This document shows positions 7,020 to 30,702 of a DNA stretch of 43,208 nucleotides, one piece after another. Position 1 is the first letter of the stretch, and each line of letters begins with the position of its first letter. Location of the stretch: contig CABXDM010000006.1 in NCBI GenBank assembly GCA_902510965.1, positions 1 through 43,208 on the forward strand. The letters are read 5' to 3'. Below the pieces are notes generated by a model. That model was not told the origin of the DNA. It was given only the letters and a program-made list of their open reading frames with translations, and made no database searches. Source of the stretch: an uncultured Candidatus Actinomarina sp. Its GTDB lineage: Bacteria > Actinomycetota > Acidimicrobiia > Actinomarinales > Actinomarinaceae. A program made the position numbers and the translations under genes.

Positions 7020-7658
7020 TTATATGTCCGTTAAATTATTCTTTTTCCATTCTTCAATTTTCTTGTGATTTCCCGATAGTAGTACGGATGGAACCTCTTT
7101 ATCCTTATAAACTTCTGGTCTTGTATAAACGGGATGGTCAAGTTTTCCATCTGTAAATGATTCAGTAAGTAAAGATTCAGCGTTACCAAGTGCACCAGGT
7201 ATTTTCCTTATCAAGGCTTCAAGTAAGAACAGTGCAGGGACTTCCCCACCTGATACAACAGTTTGACCAATTGATATTTGATAATCAGCATGCATATCAA
7301 TAATCCTTTGATCAAATCCTTCATATCTACCGCAAATAATGTTTGCTGATTGAAATGTATGCAATTCGGTAATAAGATTTTCATTCAATTGGTCCCCTGA
7401 TGGAGTTAAGAATATATTTATATCTAATTTATTAGCTGATATTGCATTATCAAGTGGTTCCGGCATAAGTACCATACCCGGTCCTCCACCATATGGTGCA
7501 TCATCTACCTGGTGGTAATCACCTAGACCGTAATCTCTTAGATTTGTAGTAGATAATTCAAAAAGGTCACTTTGATGTGCTTTAGAGATTATTCCAGTTT
7601 CTGACCACTCGTCTATGAGTTTTGGAAATAAAGTAACTATATTATATTTTGATAACAT
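7020..7658 (-). CDS. trmD: tRNA (guanine-N1)-methyltransferase
   Basis: DDAPYGGGPGMVLMPEPL, IICGRYEGFDQRI, ISIGQTVVSGGEVPALFLLEALIRKIPGALGN, LDHPVYTRPEVY. Confidence 0.97.
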   Translation of the reverse strand: MLSKYNIVTLFPKLIDEWSETGIISKAHQSDLFELSTTNLRDYGLGDYHQVDDAPYGGGPGMVLMPEPLDNAISANKLDINIFLTPSGDQLNENLITELHTFQSANIICGRYEGFDQRIIDMHADYQISIGQTVVSGGEVPALFLLEALIRKIPGALGNAESLLTESFTDGKLDHPVYTRPEVYKDKEVPSVLLSGNHKKIEEWKKNNLTDI

Positions 7659-9495
7659 TTTCAGAACTTACACTTTCAAGATTCTTAAAAGATGTATAAA
7701 GCGTATTTCTTAAATACGGAATTTTTCCTGCATCATTAATCAGACTGATAAATTCCATGTCAGTAGTTTCTTGACCGTGATTTGCTCCTGATGCCCTACT
7801 GATGTTTTCATTGATTAAGGTTCCTCCAAGATCATTAACCCCTGACTCAAGAAGAACTTTTGCACCATCATGACCAAGTTTTACCCAGCTTGCTTGTATG
7901 TTATCTATTGTGTTGTAAAAGTATATTCTCGCTAATGAATGCATCAGCACTATTTCATCCCAGGCTGGACCTGGCATACTTTTACCTTGTAAAAATATTG
8001 GTGAACCCATGTGAACAAAAGGAAGGGGGACAATTTCTGTGAATCCATTCGTTTTTATTTGAATATTTTTAATTAATTGAAAGTGATTTACCCAAGAATC
8101 TAGATCATCTATGTGGCCGAACATAATTGTTGCTGTAGATTTAATACCTAATGAGTGAGCAACTTCCATGACATAACCCCATTGAGAGGAAGTAATTTTA
8201 TCATCGCACAAGTACTTTCTTATTCTGTCATCCAGTATTTCAGCAGCGGTGCCGGGTAGAGTTCCTAACCCTGCTTCTTTAAGATCTTGCAAATAGTCCT
8301 CTATTGATTTATTTACAGTATTTGCACCTTGCCATATTTCAAGTGGTGTAAAGCCATGTATGTGCATATCAGGTAATTCACTCTTTATTTTTTTAACTAA
8401 ATCAATATAGAAATCACCTGTATAACTTGGATGAATCCCCCCTTGCAAGCAAACTTCTGAAGCACCATTTTTATGTGCTTCTATTGTTCTATTAAGGACT
8501 TCATCAGGTGTTAATGTATATGGTTTTTCTTTGAGGTCTAAACTTTGGGGACCTTTTGAAAAGCCGCAGAAACCACACTTGTAATAACACTGATTTGTGT
8601 AATTAATGTTTCGATTTTTAACGAATGTAACTTTGTTACCGTGAACATTCTTTGTTAATTCATTCGCAAGTTCAGCAATTTGATTGATGTATTTTCCAGA
8701 TGTTTTAAATAAATCAAGGAGATCTTTTTCATTAAGATGTTCTGTTTGTTGAAAATTTTTTAAAATATTATCGAAATTTGAAGCTTTATAATCAGATAAT
8801 GTTTCTGAAGTGAAATTGAAAAGATTAGGTATAGACTCTCCACTGCCTGGATACCATGAAGTAGTCTCTCTTTTGTAGCCACGAACATTTCTTGTTTGAA
8901 GGAAGTTTGTAAATTCAGTTTTCTCTAATAAGTTCCTAGCTTCATTAACTTCTAACAGGGGTGAAAGTATTGTCCTCTCGTACAAAGGAATTGATAATTT
9001 ACTTTGTAGTTCTAGAATTTGATCTTTACTCCAATCACGAAGAAATAAGTCATCGACTCCCCTTTTTACAGCCTCTATTGCATCATCTATAGAATTAACA
9101 TACTTAGAGATAATAAAATTTGTCGTTCCATTAAGAAACATGAAAAATTCGATATCTTCCAGACTCTCTATGAGTACTATCGCTGGTTTGTATCTTGAAA
9201 TTATTTCTAAAGCATTTTCTTTAATTCCCCTGTATCGATAAATCAATCTTTTTGAATTTTGGTTTATCTTTGTGTTAATCAGTTTATCATCAATGAACCA
9301 TGCTGAAGAGTTAGAAGCAATATCTGAAGAAATAGTTTGAAAGCCATTTATTAATAGATTTTTATAATCTATATCTAGTTCTGGTTTTAAAGTAAAAGCA
9401 GAAGTACCTTCTTTAGCTCTTGAGTTCAAATATATCTCATTATCACTATCGCAAGGACGGATTCTTAAATAGGATATATTTTTATTTTCTATCAT
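7642..9495 (-). CDS. cofH: F0 synthase subunit 2 (CofH-type radical SAM) with ~245-aa N-terminal extension
   Basis: C-terminal ~370 aa: FVKNRNINYTNQCYYKCGFCGFSKG, SEVCLQGGIHPSYTGDFY, HIHGFTPLEIWQGAN, EIVPLPFVHMGSPIF; N-terminal ~245 aa not assigned. Confidence 0.92.
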   Translation of the reverse strand: MIENKNISYLRIRPCDSDNEIYLNSRAKEGTSAFTLKPELDIDYKNLLINGFQTISSDIASNSSAWFIDDKLINTKINQNSKRLIYRYRGIKENALEIISRYKPAIVLIESLEDIEFFMFLNGTTNFIISKYVNSIDDAIEAVKRGVDDLFLRDWSKDQILELQSKLSIPLYERTILSPLLEVNEARNLLEKTEFTNFLQTRNVRGYKRETTSWYPGSGESIPNLFNFTSETLSDYKASNFDNILKNFQQTEHLNEKDLLDLFKTSGKYINQIAELANELTKNVHGNKVTFVKNRNINYTNQCYYKCGFCGFSKGPQSLDLKEKPYTLTPDEVLNRTIEAHKNGASEVCLQGGIHPSYTGDFYIDLVKKIKSELPDMHIHGFTPLEIWQGANTVNKSIEDYLQDLKEAGLGTLPGTAAEILDDRIRKYLCDDKITSSQWGYVMEVAHSLGIKSTATIMFGHIDDLDSWVNHFQLIKNIQIKTNGFTEIVPLPFVHMGSPIFLQGKSMPGPAWDEIVLMHSLARIYFYNTIDNIQASWVKLGHDGAKVLLESGVNDLGGTLINENISRASGANHGQETTDMEFISLINDAGKIPYLRNTLYTSFKNLESVSSENVIKI

Positions 9496-10598
9496 TGTTT
9501 CGGATAACCATTGTTATCAATAACATTACTGACTTTTTCAAAAACTGGTGGGCTTAACCATTCATTATTTATGAAACTTGGATAAACAGGAAGCCTTTTT
9601 TTTAGAGATTGTCCACTTGAACTTGTTATTTTTTCTAAATTATTTAGATCTGGCCACAAATGATCAGGATTAACCCAATCAATAGTTTTAGGTGATATAC
9701 CTCCTAAGTCATTAATGCCACTAGTTAAATACATTTCAACGTCGGGTAAAAGATTAGGTGGGACTTGTAATGAAATCTGAGGAGGTAATAATAATCTTGT
9801 AGTTGCGATAATCCTTAAGAAGAGATCATTTATTATCTCGGCATTATTTCTCATAAGCGTATTTTTTTTAGCTCTAAAGTTTTGTAAAATAATTTCCTGT
9901 ATTGCAGTATTTTTTTTACATAATTGAATAAGTTTTACAATATCATTTATTAATTCATCTTTACTCTCAGTTATACCAATTAGAAGACCTGTTGTCATTG
10001 GGTATTTAACTTTTTCAGCATTATTTAAAGTTTCAATTCGATAGATTATATTTTTTGTCTTAGCACCATAGTGTGCCCGACCTTTTTCCAGTAATTTAGG
10101 GGAAAAACTTTCTAGCATAAGACCTCCAGATGGAGAATATTGTTTGTAGTTAATAATTTCATCTTCAGTCATTAATCCTGGATTTGCATGGGGAAATATT
10201 TTATATTTCTGATGAATTTTTTTCATATTGTCAGTTAGATACTCATGAGTTGAAGAAAAACCAAAACTTTTTAACTGTTCAAGTGCAAAATCCCATTTTA
10301 CCTCTGGTTTATCTCCAAGAGTAAACAATGCTTCGTAACACCCTGCAGATTCACCAACAGATGCAATTGCATCTACTTCTTCATAGTTAAGAAAAGTACC
10401 TCCATCTTTTGGGGTTTTAACAAATGTACAATAGGCACATGAATCTTGACATAAAGTAGTCAGCGGTATAAAAACCTTAGGACTGTATGTAATATTTTTT
10501 CCAAAACTTGATAATTTAACATCAAAAGCCTCGGATGACAGTTCAGAGGTTGGCTTCTCTCCAAAGAGAAGGGTATCTATTTGTTCGTATAACATCAT
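9492..10598 (-). CDS. cofG: F0 synthase subunit 1 (7,8-didemethyl-8-hydroxy-5-deazariboflavin synthase, CofG)
   Basis: KVFIPLTTLCQDSCAYCTF radical-SAM motif, GCYEALFTLGDKPE, NPGLMTEDEI, GGLMLESFSPKLLEKG, SGINDLGGISP. Confidence 0.95.
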   Translation of the reverse strand: MMLYEQIDTLLFGEKPTSELSSEAFDVKLSSFGKNITYSPKVFIPLTTLCQDSCAYCTFVKTPKDGGTFLNYEEVDAIASVGESAGCYEALFTLGDKPEVKWDFALEQLKSFGFSSTHEYLTDNMKKIHQKYKIFPHANPGLMTEDEIINYKQYSPSGGLMLESFSPKLLEKGRAHYGAKTKNIIYRIETLNNAEKVKYPMTTGLLIGITESKDELINDIVKLIQLCKKNTAIQEIILQNFRAKKNTLMRNNAEIINDLFLRIIATTRLLLPPQISLQVPPNLLPDVEMYLTSGINDLGGISPKTIDWVNPDHLWPDLNNLEKITSSSGQSLKKRLPVYPSFINNEWLSPPVFEKVSNVIDNNGYPKQ

Positions 10599-16895: not shown

Positions 16896-17645
16896 ATGAA
16901 AATTGCAGTATGCGCCAAACAAATACCAGATCCCGCAATAGCTGTAACGTATGAAAACGGAACAATTGTTAGACCTGATGAACAAGTTTTAGATGATACA
17001 GACAGATACGGTATTGAGGTTGCTCTTCAGTTAAAAGAAAAGTTTGATGCTGAAGTTACCGTCATAAGCATGGGTAAACTCGGTACTCAAAAAGGTATTC
17101 AACAAGCATTGCAAATGGGAGCTGACAAGGCATTAGTAATAGAAGATGAATCACTTAAAAATTCAAATTCTCTAATGACTTCTAATGTACTCAGTGAAAT
17201 TGCAAAATTAGCTCAAGCTGATATCGTAATTTTTGGAACTGAATCTTCTGATGGATATTCTGGTGTGGTTCCTCAACAGGTCTCTAGATATTTAGATTTA
17301 CCTTGCATTTCTTATGTAAAAGGGATTGAAATCAATGATGAGATACTCCTCACCAGACAAACTATTACTGGTTCCGAAAAAGTTGTAATGCCTTCTCAAT
17401 GTGTGATTTCCGTAACAGCAAGTGGCGTTGAACCAAGATACCCAAACTTCAAAGACATAATGGCGGCAAAATCTAAGGTTGTAGAGCAAGTTAACATATC
17501 ATCAATTAACTTCACAGCTAAACAGAATCAAGAGTTTATTGAAATCAAGTCTATATCAAATGATAAAAGTGGAGAGAAACATGTTGATGAGGGTGAAGCT
17601 TTCAACCTAATTATTGAAAAATTGAAGGAAATCAAAGCAATATGA
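16896..17645 (+). CDS. etfB: Electron transfer flavoprotein subunit beta
   Basis: MKIAVCAKQIPDPA, DRYGIEVALQLKEKFDAEVTVISMG, GVEPRYPNFKDIMAAKSK. Confidence 0.96.
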   Translation: MKIAVCAKQIPDPAIAVTYENGTIVRPDEQVLDDTDRYGIEVALQLKEKFDAEVTVISMGKLGTQKGIQQALQMGADKALVIEDESLKNSNSLMTSNVLSEIAKLAQADIVIFGTESSDGYSGVVPQQVSRYLDLPCISYVKGIEINDEILLTRQTITGSEKVVMPSQCVISVTASGVEPRYPNFKDIMAAKSKVVEQVNISSINFTAKQNQEFIEIKSISNDKSGEKHVDEGEAFNLIIEKLKEIKAI

Positions 17646-18565
17646 AATCATTAATAATAGGTGAAGCTAGCAATGGAACAATTTCTTCTGGAACACTTGA
17701 ATTGATATCTAAAGTAACACAAGAAGGTCTAGATTTTAAACTAGTTACTGTTGGCTCTGATGAAAATCCTAAAATTGGTTCTGATACTTTTAAGAATACA
17801 TATATGAAGCTTAATCAGAATGAATTATCACTTGCTTCTGTTGCTGACGAAATAAGTAAGATAATTACATCTGAGTCAATTGATCTTGTTTTAGCTTCCT
17901 CTACATATGTAGGGCGAGATATAGCTGGATTTGTCTCTGTGGATTTAAACGCTAGTCCAGTTTCTAATGTAGTTAATTTTAAAATTGATGGTGATAAATT
18001 ATCCACAACCAATTCAATAGATGGTGGTGAGAGTGATTACCTAACGAATGTTACCTCTGAAGTTAAAGTTTTGCTCATCAGGCCTAAATCATTTGAAGCT
18101 TCGGTAATTGAGTTAAATGATAACTATGAGACAGTTTCAATTGAAAAAAATAATCTTTCAGTAGCAGTTCAAGATATTTTTATCGAGGAGAAAACAGGAC
18201 CACAACTAGAAGATTCAAAAATTGTAATATCGGCAGGTAGGGGTATGGTCGATGTCGAAAATCTAAAATTTATAGAAGAATTAGCTAATAAATTAAACGC
18301 CGCCATAGGTGGTACTAGGGCCATAGTTGACGCAGGTTGGATGCCTTATTCACAACAAGTTGGGCAAACAGGTAAAACCGTAAAACCTGATGTGTACATT
18401 GCTTGCGGTATATCTGGTGCAACTCAACATCAAGTCGGCATGAAAGACTCAAAATTTATTATTGCTATTAATAAAGATGAAGAAGCTCCTATATTTCAGA
18501 TTGCAGATTTGGGAGTTGTCGGAGATACATTAAGTATCATTCCAAAACTAATCGACTCTCTTTAG
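17642..18565 (+). CDS. etfA: Electron transfer flavoprotein subunit alpha
   Basis: IVISAGRGMVDVENLKFIEELANKLNAAIGGTRAIVDAGWMPYSQQVGQTGKTVKPDVYIACGISGATQHQVGM FAD-binding signature. Confidence 0.97.
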   Translation: MKSLIIGEASNGTISSGTLELISKVTQEGLDFKLVTVGSDENPKIGSDTFKNTYMKLNQNELSLASVADEISKIITSESIDLVLASSTYVGRDIAGFVSVDLNASPVSNVVNFKIDGDKLSTTNSIDGGESDYLTNVTSEVKVLLIRPKSFEASVIELNDNYETVSIEKNNLSVAVQDIFIEEKTGPQLEDSKIVISAGRGMVDVENLKFIEELANKLNAAIGGTRAIVDAGWMPYSQQVGQTGKTVKPDVYIACGISGATQHQVGMKDSKFIIAINKDEEAPIFQIADLGVVGDTLSIIPKLIDSL

Positions 18566-24997: not shown

Positions 24998-25507
24998 CTA
25001 TTCAGGATTAATAATTTCTCGTGGTTGTCTCAATGAAGTCTTTTCATTTGCAATATAAGAATTGACTTGCTCAATTTTTGATTGAAGTTGGGTGAATAAA
25101 GCATCCATTTCATCTTCAACTTTCATTCTGTAGGATTGTGCCTCTTTTTCAGCTTGTTTAATTAATGTATTGGCTTCAATAACTGCCTCTTGAAGAACGT
25201 AGGAATTAGAAATTAATGATTCAGATTCTCTTTTTGCATTATTGATTATATTTTGAGATTCTTCTTTTGCTTCGTTGAGGAAAGTGTCTTGTTCTCTAAC
25301 AAGCCATCTTGCAGTCCTCATTTCGACCGGTAAGATATCAATTAGATTTTCAACCATTGCAATCAACTCTTTGTTACTTGCACGGCTTTTAAGAAAGTTA
25401 CCCGAGCTAAGTTTTTCTCTCAGTAATTCAAGTTGATCAACGTATTCAACCCTAACTTCTCCATTTATTATTTCCTTAAAATTATTATCTTCTGCCTCAG
25501 ACATCAT
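24998..25507 (-). CDS. DivIVA-like coiled-coil protein (actinobacterial type)
   Basis: Long heptad region ARWLVREQDTFLNEAKEESQNIINNAKRESESLI...; between coaD and DUF177. Confidence 0.7.
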   Translation of the reverse strand: MMSEAEDNNFKEIINGEVRVEYVDQLELLREKLSSGNFLKSRASNKELIAMVENLIDILPVEMRTARWLVREQDTFLNEAKEESQNIINNAKRESESLISNSYVLQEAVIEANTLIKQAEKEAQSYRMKVEDEMDALFTQLQSKIEQVNSYIANEKTSLRQPREIINPE

Positions 25508-25961
25508 TCATCCTTTTTAATACATTGGCTGGTACAAGTTTGGAGACATCTCCACCGTAGGAATTTATTTCTTTAACCATTGAGCTCGAAACATAACCAT
25601 ATTCCGGTGACGCTGGAATAAAAATTGTTTCAAAATCAGCTAAATTCGAATTCATTTGAGCCATTTGAAATTCATAGTCAAAATCCGTCATTGCCCTGAG
25701 TCCTTTAACTATCGCTTGTACGTCATTAACTTTTGCGAAATCGACAAGCAAACCTTCAAAGGTTTTCGTTGAGACATTTGGAGTGTCAGATATTATTTCA
25801 TTGAGCATTAATTCTCTTATTTCAGTAGTGAATAGTGATTTTTTCGAAGGATTGACAACGACACCAATTAAAACCTCCTCAAAGACTTTCGAACATCTTT
25901 TAATAACATCAATGTGTCCATTAGTTGGAGGATCAAATGAGCCTGGTATAAGTACTTTCAT
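25497..25961 (-). CDS. coaD: Phosphopantetheine adenylyltransferase
   Basis: MKVLIPGSFDPPTNGHIDVIKRC, VKGLRAMTDFDYEFQMAQMN, YGYVSSSMVKEI. Confidence 0.97.
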   Translation of the reverse strand: MKVLIPGSFDPPTNGHIDVIKRCSKVFEEVLIGVVVNPSKKSLFTTEIRELMLNEIISDTPNVSTKTFEGLLVDFAKVNDVQAIVKGLRAMTDFDYEFQMAQMNSNLADFETIFIPASPEYGYVSSSMVKEINSYGGDVSKLVPANVLKRMNDV

Positions 25962-29089: not shown

Positions 29090-30283
29090 ATGTCTGAAAT
29101 TAACATTCACGACTCCAATAAATTAATTATCGATAAATATTTTAACAATCTTACTTGTGACGAATATACAGAATCAATGTTTAGTGGTGGGCAGTCACAT
29201 GCCGATGAACGACTAGCAAATCTAGACATCAAGGGATACTCTAAAAAAAGAAACAATGTTTACCCCGCAACCACTAGAGGTTCTTCATTCCTCTCTCCCT
29301 ATATACGTCATGGTTTACTTAATCTTCCAGAAGTCTGGAAAGCAGTAGAAAATTCTCAAAATGAAGATCGAACTAAATTTAGAGATGAGTTGCTTTGGCA
29401 AGAATTTTCAAGACATCTTTATGCAATTTTGGGCCAGAATAATCGAAAAATGTGGAACTACTCCTTTGAAAACAATAATAAAGCAGTAAACACATCTGAA
29501 ATGAACTGTATTCAGACTATTAGAAATGAATTAGTGGAAACAGGATACATGGTTAATCAGACAAGAATGTGGTATTCATCTCATCACAGTTTCAGAGCTG
29601 AAAATAATTGGAATAGATATGAAGATTTTATGTTCAAGCATTTAGTTGATGGCTCAAGATTTGCAAACAGATTAGGTTGGCAGTGGGTTATGGGCGGACA
29701 AACTGGAAAGTTGTATGGGTTTGCCCAATCTCAAGTTAAGAATAGAGCTCCTAAACTATGTCAAGAATGCAATCTTCAGTATAAATGTCCTATACAGACA
29801 TGGCCCGATCAATCGAAATATGAACCAATAGAACAAAAAATAGATTATGAAATTAAAAATAAATTCGGCCCAACAGAAACAATTAACTCACAAGAAAAAC
29901 CATCAGTAGTATGGCTAACAGGTGAATCTATGGGTGATGACGATCCTGCACTAAAAGCTAATCCAGAACTTCCGGTAATTTTTATATTCGATAATGTACT
30001 ACTTAATAAAATACAAATATCTACAAAAAGGATTAATTTCTTATTAGACACACTAAAAGAATTGGCCCTTAAAAGGAAGTTGTTAGTTTTTTTAGGAGAT
30101 CCCAAGTTAATATTAAGTGATTACAACTATGCAGTTACGTTTGCATGTGTACCTAAGTACCAAGAAATAACCAAGATTATTAAACCAGTAGCTGAGTATC
30201 CAACAGTAAGACTTGCTGATCCGATAAGTTTTTATCCACGAAGTTATACATCATGGAAAAAGAAAATTAAATTGACTGTATGA
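29090..30283 (+). CDS. Photolyase/cryptochrome-family protein with apparent permuted domain order
   Basis: N-terminal FAD domain (FSGGQSHADERL, RGSSFLSPYIRHGLL, FRDELLWQEFSRHLY, LVDGSRFANRLGWQWVMGGQTG) followed by C-terminal photolyase alpha/beta domain (PSVVWLTGESMGDDDPALKANPELPVIFIFDNVLL...STKRINFLLDTLKELALKRKLLVFLGDP). Confidence 0.88.
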   Translation: MSEINIHDSNKLIIDKYFNNLTCDEYTESMFSGGQSHADERLANLDIKGYSKKRNNVYPATTRGSSFLSPYIRHGLLNLPEVWKAVENSQNEDRTKFRDELLWQEFSRHLYAILGQNNRKMWNYSFENNNKAVNTSEMNCIQTIRNELVETGYMVNQTRMWYSSHHSFRAENNWNRYEDFMFKHLVDGSRFANRLGWQWVMGGQTGKLYGFAQSQVKNRAPKLCQECNLQYKCPIQTWPDQSKYEPIEQKIDYEIKNKFGPTETINSQEKPSVVWLTGESMGDDDPALKANPELPVIFIFDNVLLNKIQISTKRINFLLDTLKELALKRKLLVFLGDPKLILSDYNYAVTFACVPKYQEITKIIKPVAEYPTVRLADPISFYPRSYTSWKKKIKLTV

Positions 30284-30702
30284 AAAGAAAACTTATCTTT
30301 GTATTTTTATTTTTTCATAATTATATATATATCTATACAAAGGGAAGGGTAGGAAAGAATCTTAATGGGAGACCGTGTTTAATCTTAGAAACTGTTGGAG
30401 CTAAAACACAATTGATTAGAAAGAATGTACTTGTTTACTTAAAAGAAGGTAATGAAATATGTCTAATTGCATCAAGAGGTGGAAGTGAAAGAAACCCGGG
30501 ATGGTATTACAATTTAAAAAAAAATGAAACGTCAGTAATATCCATTGGAACGCAGAAATTTGAAGTTAATTCGAGAGAAGTTTTTAATGAAGAAAGAGAT
30601 GAATGGTGGGCAAAAATGGATTATCTAAATAGTGGTGGATATCAAAGATACCAACAACGTACTTCAAGATTAATACCAGTAATGGTATTAACAATTACTT
30701 AG
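30280..30702 (+). CDS. Deazaflavin (F420)-dependent nitroreductase family (DDN-like) protein
   Basis: LNGRPCLILETVGAKTQLIRKNVLVYLKEGNEICLIASRGGSERNPGWYYNLKKN. Confidence 0.88.
   Translation: MKRKLIFVFLFFHNYIYIYTKGRVGKNLNGRPCLILETVGAKTQLIRKNVLVYLKEGNEICLIASRGGSERNPGWYYNLKKNETSVISIGTQKFEVNSREVFNEERDEWWAKMDYLNSGGYQRYQQRTSRLIPVMVLTIT

Follow-up and report, generated by a model that had tools for sequence, protein, structure and literature searches.

A photolyase-like protein of reversed domain order, with candidate Fe-S cysteines and a probable CPD-type active site, in Candidatus Actinomarina

A gene on a contig of an uncultured Candidatus Actinomarina sp. (CABXDM010000006.1; the whole 43,208-nucleotide stretch analyzed is called the window below) encodes a photolyase-like protein in which the helical FAD-binding domain comes first and the alpha/beta domain second. 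In canonical photolyases the antenna domain comes first. On balance we favor reading this protein as a reversed-domain Fe-S photolyase, Phr6-like and allied to the short photolyase-like proteins (SPL), with a CPD-type active site, FAD, a probable antenna pigment and a [4Fe-4S] cluster. In such an enzyme FAD would sit in the N-terminal helical domain, and blue or UV-A light would be collected by FAD and probably also by an antenna pigment in the C-terminal alpha/beta domain, for which 8-HDF/FO is the candidate. Driven by this light, reduced FAD would pass an electron to a pyrimidine dimer. C140, C224, C227 and C233 would hold a [4Fe-4S] cluster that closes the FAD domain and probably serves a structural purpose or helps to bind the lesion, a role also proposed for the cluster of PhrB. 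What the analysis shows is the domain order, the homology of both domains and the invariance of the key residues; the cofactors, the antenna, the type of lesion and the activity are inferred from these. The gene and its two domains are as follows.

29090..30283, + strand: reversed-order photolyase-like protein, 397 aa (ORF list and full-length homologues)
29177..29749, + strand: helical FAD-binding domain, about residues 30-220 (PF03441, phmmer, full-length model)
29891..30280, + strand: C-terminal alpha/beta (antenna-type) domain, residues 268-397 (profile-profile score, Foldseek)

The ORF lies where an earlier sequence-only reading of this DNA had placed it, and the motifs quoted in that reading are present in the translation. 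Full-length homologues with intact frames and 57-91% identity are carried by 28 of 34 same-genus genomes. The ORF is thus neither a chance reading frame nor an assembly artefact, but a real, conserved gene.

The sequence-only reading had claimed that the protein opens with a photolyase FAD domain, and this is borne out. PF03441 matches residues 98-202 at 27.9 bits (Pfam cut-off 27; E=1.8e-6) and is matched by all 34 homologues tested (best E 1.7e-16), a sequence match above cut-off that assigns the protein to the photolyase/cryptochrome superfamily. In a phmmer search of the PDB, residues 47-201 align to residues 224-394 of the class I photolyases 1tez and 1owl (E=2e-14), and a profile comparison of the FAD domain with these class I CPD photolyases gives E=1e-18. 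The full-length structure model has a pTM of 0.85, with confidence below 50 at residues 189-206.

Within and just behind this domain lie four cysteines, C140-x83-C224-x2-C227-x5-C233, that are invariant in 34/34 homologues; the spacing is exactly x83, x2, x5 in 33 of the 34 proteins and x82 in one.

29507..29509, + strand: C140, aligned without a gap to the PhrB cluster ligand C350 (MNC in both; sequence alignment)
29759..29788, + strand: C224-x2-C227-x5-C233, the other three candidate ligands of an Fe-S cluster (invariant, 34/34)

For PhrB, we take C454 to be a further Fe-S ligand besides the published ones. The latter include C350, C438 and C441 (PMC4619345). PhrB residues were taken from published mutagenesis primers, THMNC(350)MAKVIT and NAYAHH(366)IQRL(370) (PMC4619345). 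When these are set against EMNC(140)IQTIRNELVETGYMVN(156)QTRM(160), the Cys, the His/Asn, the Arg and the Leu/Met fall in register without a gap, and the distance from Cys to His/Asn is 16 in both proteins. The invariance of the cysteines and the collinearity of C140 with PhrB C350 make a [4Fe-4S] cluster likely. It had been guessed earlier that a Cys-containing linker between the domains could bind a metal or Fe-S cluster. That guess is strengthened by the invariant, PhrB-like cysteines, but the linker holds only three of them and the fourth, C140, lies within the FAD domain.

Functional photolyase residues were compared across the 34 homologues using the numbering of the A. nidulans photolyase, whose residue roles, apart from those cited below, we presume to be as generally understood. 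All 34 homologues retain E283, W286, N349, W367, D380, N386, W390 and W392, and 31 of the 34 retain M353. W314, the distal Trp of the class I triad, is lost; D382 is replaced by Ser and R287 by Gln in 34/34.

29387..29398, + strand: E100 and W103, the counterparts of A. nidulans E283 and W286 by alignment (invariant, 34/34)
29555..29569, + strand: N156 to M160, corresponding to H366 and L370 of PhrB (N in 34/34, M in 31/34)

PhrB cannot carry out (6-4) repair without H366, and CPD photolyases have Asn and Met where PhrB has H366 and L370 (PMC4619345). Since Asn and Met here replace the essential His and the Leu of the (6-4) enzymes, CPD repair is favored over (6-4) repair, and these residues are most simply read as the CPD-type active site of an Fe-S photolyase.

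The strongest competing view is that the protein is a (6-4) photolyase whose Fe-S cluster marks that activity, as proposed for Phr4/Phr5/Phr6. The (6-4) role that Haney et al. proposed for Phr4/5 was argued from their Fe-S cysteines and from a phenotype biased toward UV-C (PMC9426592), and both arguments could be carried over: the four cysteines are arranged as in PhrB, and UV-C, which the Phr4/5 phenotype follows, yields relatively more (6-4) lesions. Disruption of the cyanobacterial Phr4/5 reduced UV-C survival, and in E. coli Phr4/5 gave UV-C protection with a difference between light and dark that was not significant (PMC9426592). Against this, the PhrB mutants H366N and H366N/L370M have no repair activity (PMC4619345), and at these two positions the homologues carry Asn (34/34) and Met (31/34). 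Moreover, the same genome already encodes a separate 497-aa DPRP-type (PF04244) photolyase (contig C3, L072:1204-2697) that shares the His-His motif with prokaryotic (6-4) enzymes and lacks a matching Fe-S cysteine pattern. We therefore regard a (6-4) activity of the reversed-order protein as unlikely.

The neighborhood of the gene bears on both a possible antenna and a second alternative.

30280..30702, + strand: F420H2-dependent quinone reductase / deazaflavin nitroreductase (PF04075 E=3e-35, TIGR00026)
7642..9495, - strand: FO synthase subunit CofH (TIGR03551, 464 bits, above cut-off)
9492..10598, - strand: FO synthase subunit CofG (TIGR03550, 360 bits, above cut-off)

The reductase gene overlaps the photolyase stop codon by four bases (ATGA), and an F420-dependent reductase is found directly downstream, among other conserved neighbors, in every same-genus locus with sufficient flank. 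Homologues from other genera do not have it as a neighbor, so that a functional link with the photolyase is weak. One could nevertheless propose that the protein has lost repair and acts as a cryptochrome-like sensor of light or redox state, in which the Fe-S cluster and the adjoining reductase form a redox switch. The overlap conserved within the genus and the change of several class I FAD-site residues speak for such a sensor, whereas the nearly invariant lesion-site residues E283, W286, N349 and M353 would be needless in it, the gene pair is not conserved outside the genus, and the cyanobacterial Phr4/5 raises UV survival. We consider this quite improbable and retain the view that the protein is a CPD-type repair enzyme.

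S. elongatus has an Fe-S (6-4) photolyase whose antenna is FO (PMC9178010). Together with the presence of CofG and CofH in the window, this makes 8-HDF (FO) a plausible antenna for the reversed-order photolyase by analogy, with CofG/CofH as its possible source. As a separate observation, about 230 residues at the N-terminus of the CofH ORF (window 8806-9495), preceding its radical-SAM part, have no Pfam match at E<=1.

Other photolyase genes were seen in the genus and on plasmids. In two same-genus loci (L035:3270-4745 and L036:2750-4225) a class II photolyase (TIGR00591) adjoins a rhodopsin gene; it was not found in the assembly studied here, which measures 810 kb and is 67% complete. The Actinomarinales genome paper mentions as sole photolyase one beside the rhodopsin gene (PMC7771536), and a gene content with F420 synthesis and, in relatives, neighboring rhodopsin and photolyase genes is consistent with that marine order. 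Alphaproteobacterial plasmids encode NewPHL-like FAD-domain proteins that lack the cysteines (L040:2432-3604 and L041:2423-3643), with UbiB-family kinase genes near both, and on a Persicobacter plasmid (L039:2291-5057) a canonical cryptochrome/photolyase-like gene directly follows a photolyase-like gene whose FAD domain is N-terminal and which lacks the Fe-S cysteines.

The identity of the C-terminal half decides whether the protein is a reversed photolyase at all. The match of PF00875 to this half is weak, at 12.7-12.9 bits (cut-off 26.6; E=0.11-0.13); among the homologues it is the most frequently matched family (9/35, best E 0.0024), still below the curated cut-off. A profile built from 35 C-terminal domains was then compared with an alignment of six canonical photolyases. 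It matched canonical residues 5-93 with a score of 39.6, whereas the maximum was 18.6 among 33 other window proteins and 18.0 among 40 column-shuffled photolyase profiles. Controls of the same broad fold from the window, CoaD (25497-25961) and the electron transfer flavoprotein subunits (16896-18565), scored 12-14. When the C-terminal domain is modeled by itself with AlphaFold, the mean pLDDT is 89.5, and in a Foldseek search of the PDB the first 12 hits of this model are all class II photolyases (probability 0.97-1.00; TM 0.50-0.56 over 126-140 columns). Taken together, the profiles and the model support the view that this domain is a homologue of the one that opens canonical photolyases. That it might instead be an unrelated Rossmann-like domain, so that a FAD domain is joined to a foreign partner, is highly improbable: PF00875 stays under the Pfam cut-off and universal stress proteins and CoaD, of similar broad fold, do appear lower in the Foldseek list, but Foldseek places 1 to 12 are all photolyases, the same-fold controls score far below 39.6, and the C-terminal ORF of a split Deinococcus gene pair matches PF00875 at E=2e-4.

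When the full-length profiles are compared, two alignments are obtained and they are reversed, with residues ~30-208 matching the C-terminal part of canonical photolyases and 268-343 their N-terminal part. A Foldseek search with the full-length model also returns photolyases, but the top 50 (TM 0.28-0.40) cover the FAD part only, as a sequential aligner does on a reversed chain, and this search is thus uninformative on order. Profile, structural and comparative evidence agree that the order is FAD domain first and alpha/beta domain second, which we consider well supported. The sequence-only reading had taken the C-terminal end for the start of a canonical photolyase in a circularly permuted protein. 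This holds at the level of fold and profile, whereas PF00875 alone does not report it above cut-off; the C-terminal model and the profiles revealed neither an unrelated fold nor the standard order. The term "circularly permuted" applies to the order of the domains along the chain, the packing of the domains being a separate matter. Annotation by Pfam or NCBIfam overlooks the second half of such a protein.

Searching with the C-terminal half as query, we found the domain in 20 of 297 sampled Actinomycetota genomes, representing 16 of 199 genera. At 18 further loci from this search it is fused behind a FAD domain with the cysteine motif, and the reversed-order photolyase is a single gene at every Actinomycetota locus read. 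The layout is therefore widespread in this phylum, occurring both in small-genome Actinomycetota, which are probably abundant at the ocean surface, and in numerous further genera. A contig-end fragment (G058) that might have been a stand-alone C-terminal protein was rejected, as its ORF is cut by the contig end. Diverged relatives on Deinococcus plasmids share the domain order and also carry four cysteines, which are spaced somewhat differently. On a plasmid of Deinococcus sp. QL22 (L037:2399-3690) the FAD and alpha/beta domains are two overlapping genes in reversed order, paralleling cyanobacterial phr4/phr5; the second ORF, which gives the PF00875 match noted above, is annotated as hypothetical. 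None of 31 pattern matches on viral contigs was confirmed as a relative, and phage records gave FAD-domain matches only, with query coverage <=54%. In a FAD-domain tree the Actinomycetota proteins form a single clade (99/98); its placement among other groups is poorly supported and branches are long, and we claim no origin from it.

Somewhat tentatively, we suggest that this one-gene class, widespread in Actinomycetota, may combine CPD repair with an Fe-S cluster, possibly with an FO antenna; if so, a PhrB-type cluster is no mark of (6-4) activity. With a conserved Asn/Met site and Fe-S cysteines in one protein, the dispute over lesion type, CPD or (6-4), is open to a direct test, and the naturally reversed order lets one ask whether the antenna domain and the catalytic domain cooperate whatever their order in the chain.

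Among known systems, class I CPD photolyases (1owl, 1tez) have the FAD domain closest by sequence among those of known structure and share the lesion-site residues. They differ from the Actinomarina protein, which has no N-terminal alpha/beta domain but the reversed order, carries Fe-S cysteines, lacks W314 and has a shorter FAD domain. With FeS-BCP (PhrB) it shares the four-cysteine arrangement, with the first ligand collinear. FeS-BCP have the canonical order, a DPRP N-terminal domain and the essential His, whereas the Actinomarina protein gives no match to PF04244 (DPRP) in the Pfam scan and Asn stands at PhrB position 366 throughout the family.

PMC13274461 ascribes an "inverted domain topology" to NewPHL/SPL proteins, and NewPHL/Phr7 (Emmerich et al. 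2020, via PMC9426592 and PMC13274461) share with our protein the N-terminal FAD domain and this topology. Phr7 has a C-terminal Z-domain and no such cysteines; the Actinomarina protein has the cysteines. The NewPHL-like proteins P0004 and P0005 are likewise without the four cysteines, and against the Actinomarina family their C-termini give a background score (16.5). SPL proteins are summarized as CPD repair enzymes with an Fe-S cluster (Xu et al. 2021, via PMC9649867 and PMC9178010); both SPL and the Actinomarina protein have a FAD domain without an N-terminal alpha/beta domain, and the latter has in addition a C-terminal one.

The nearest counterparts are found in marine Synechococcus/Cyanobium, where the reversed order occurs as two genes (Phr4/Phr5) or one (Phr6) (Haney et al. 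2022, PMC9426592). These proteins resemble ours in order, FAD and then photolyase alpha/beta, and in the four Fe-S cysteines, which in RS9916 Phr4 are C169, C254, C257 and C263 (PMC9426592), giving steps of 85-3-6 residues as compared with 84-3-6 here. They come from another phylum, and the Asn/Met lesion site of the Actinomarina protein argues against their proposed (6-4) role. Judged by order and cysteines, and through published descriptions, the Actinomarina protein belongs with Phr6 and Phr4/5. The limited literature available yielded no description of a reversed-order protein in Actinomycetota. The architecture itself is thus already known (Haney 2022, PMC9426592), and what is new is its breadth in Actinomycetota and the Asn/Met active site.
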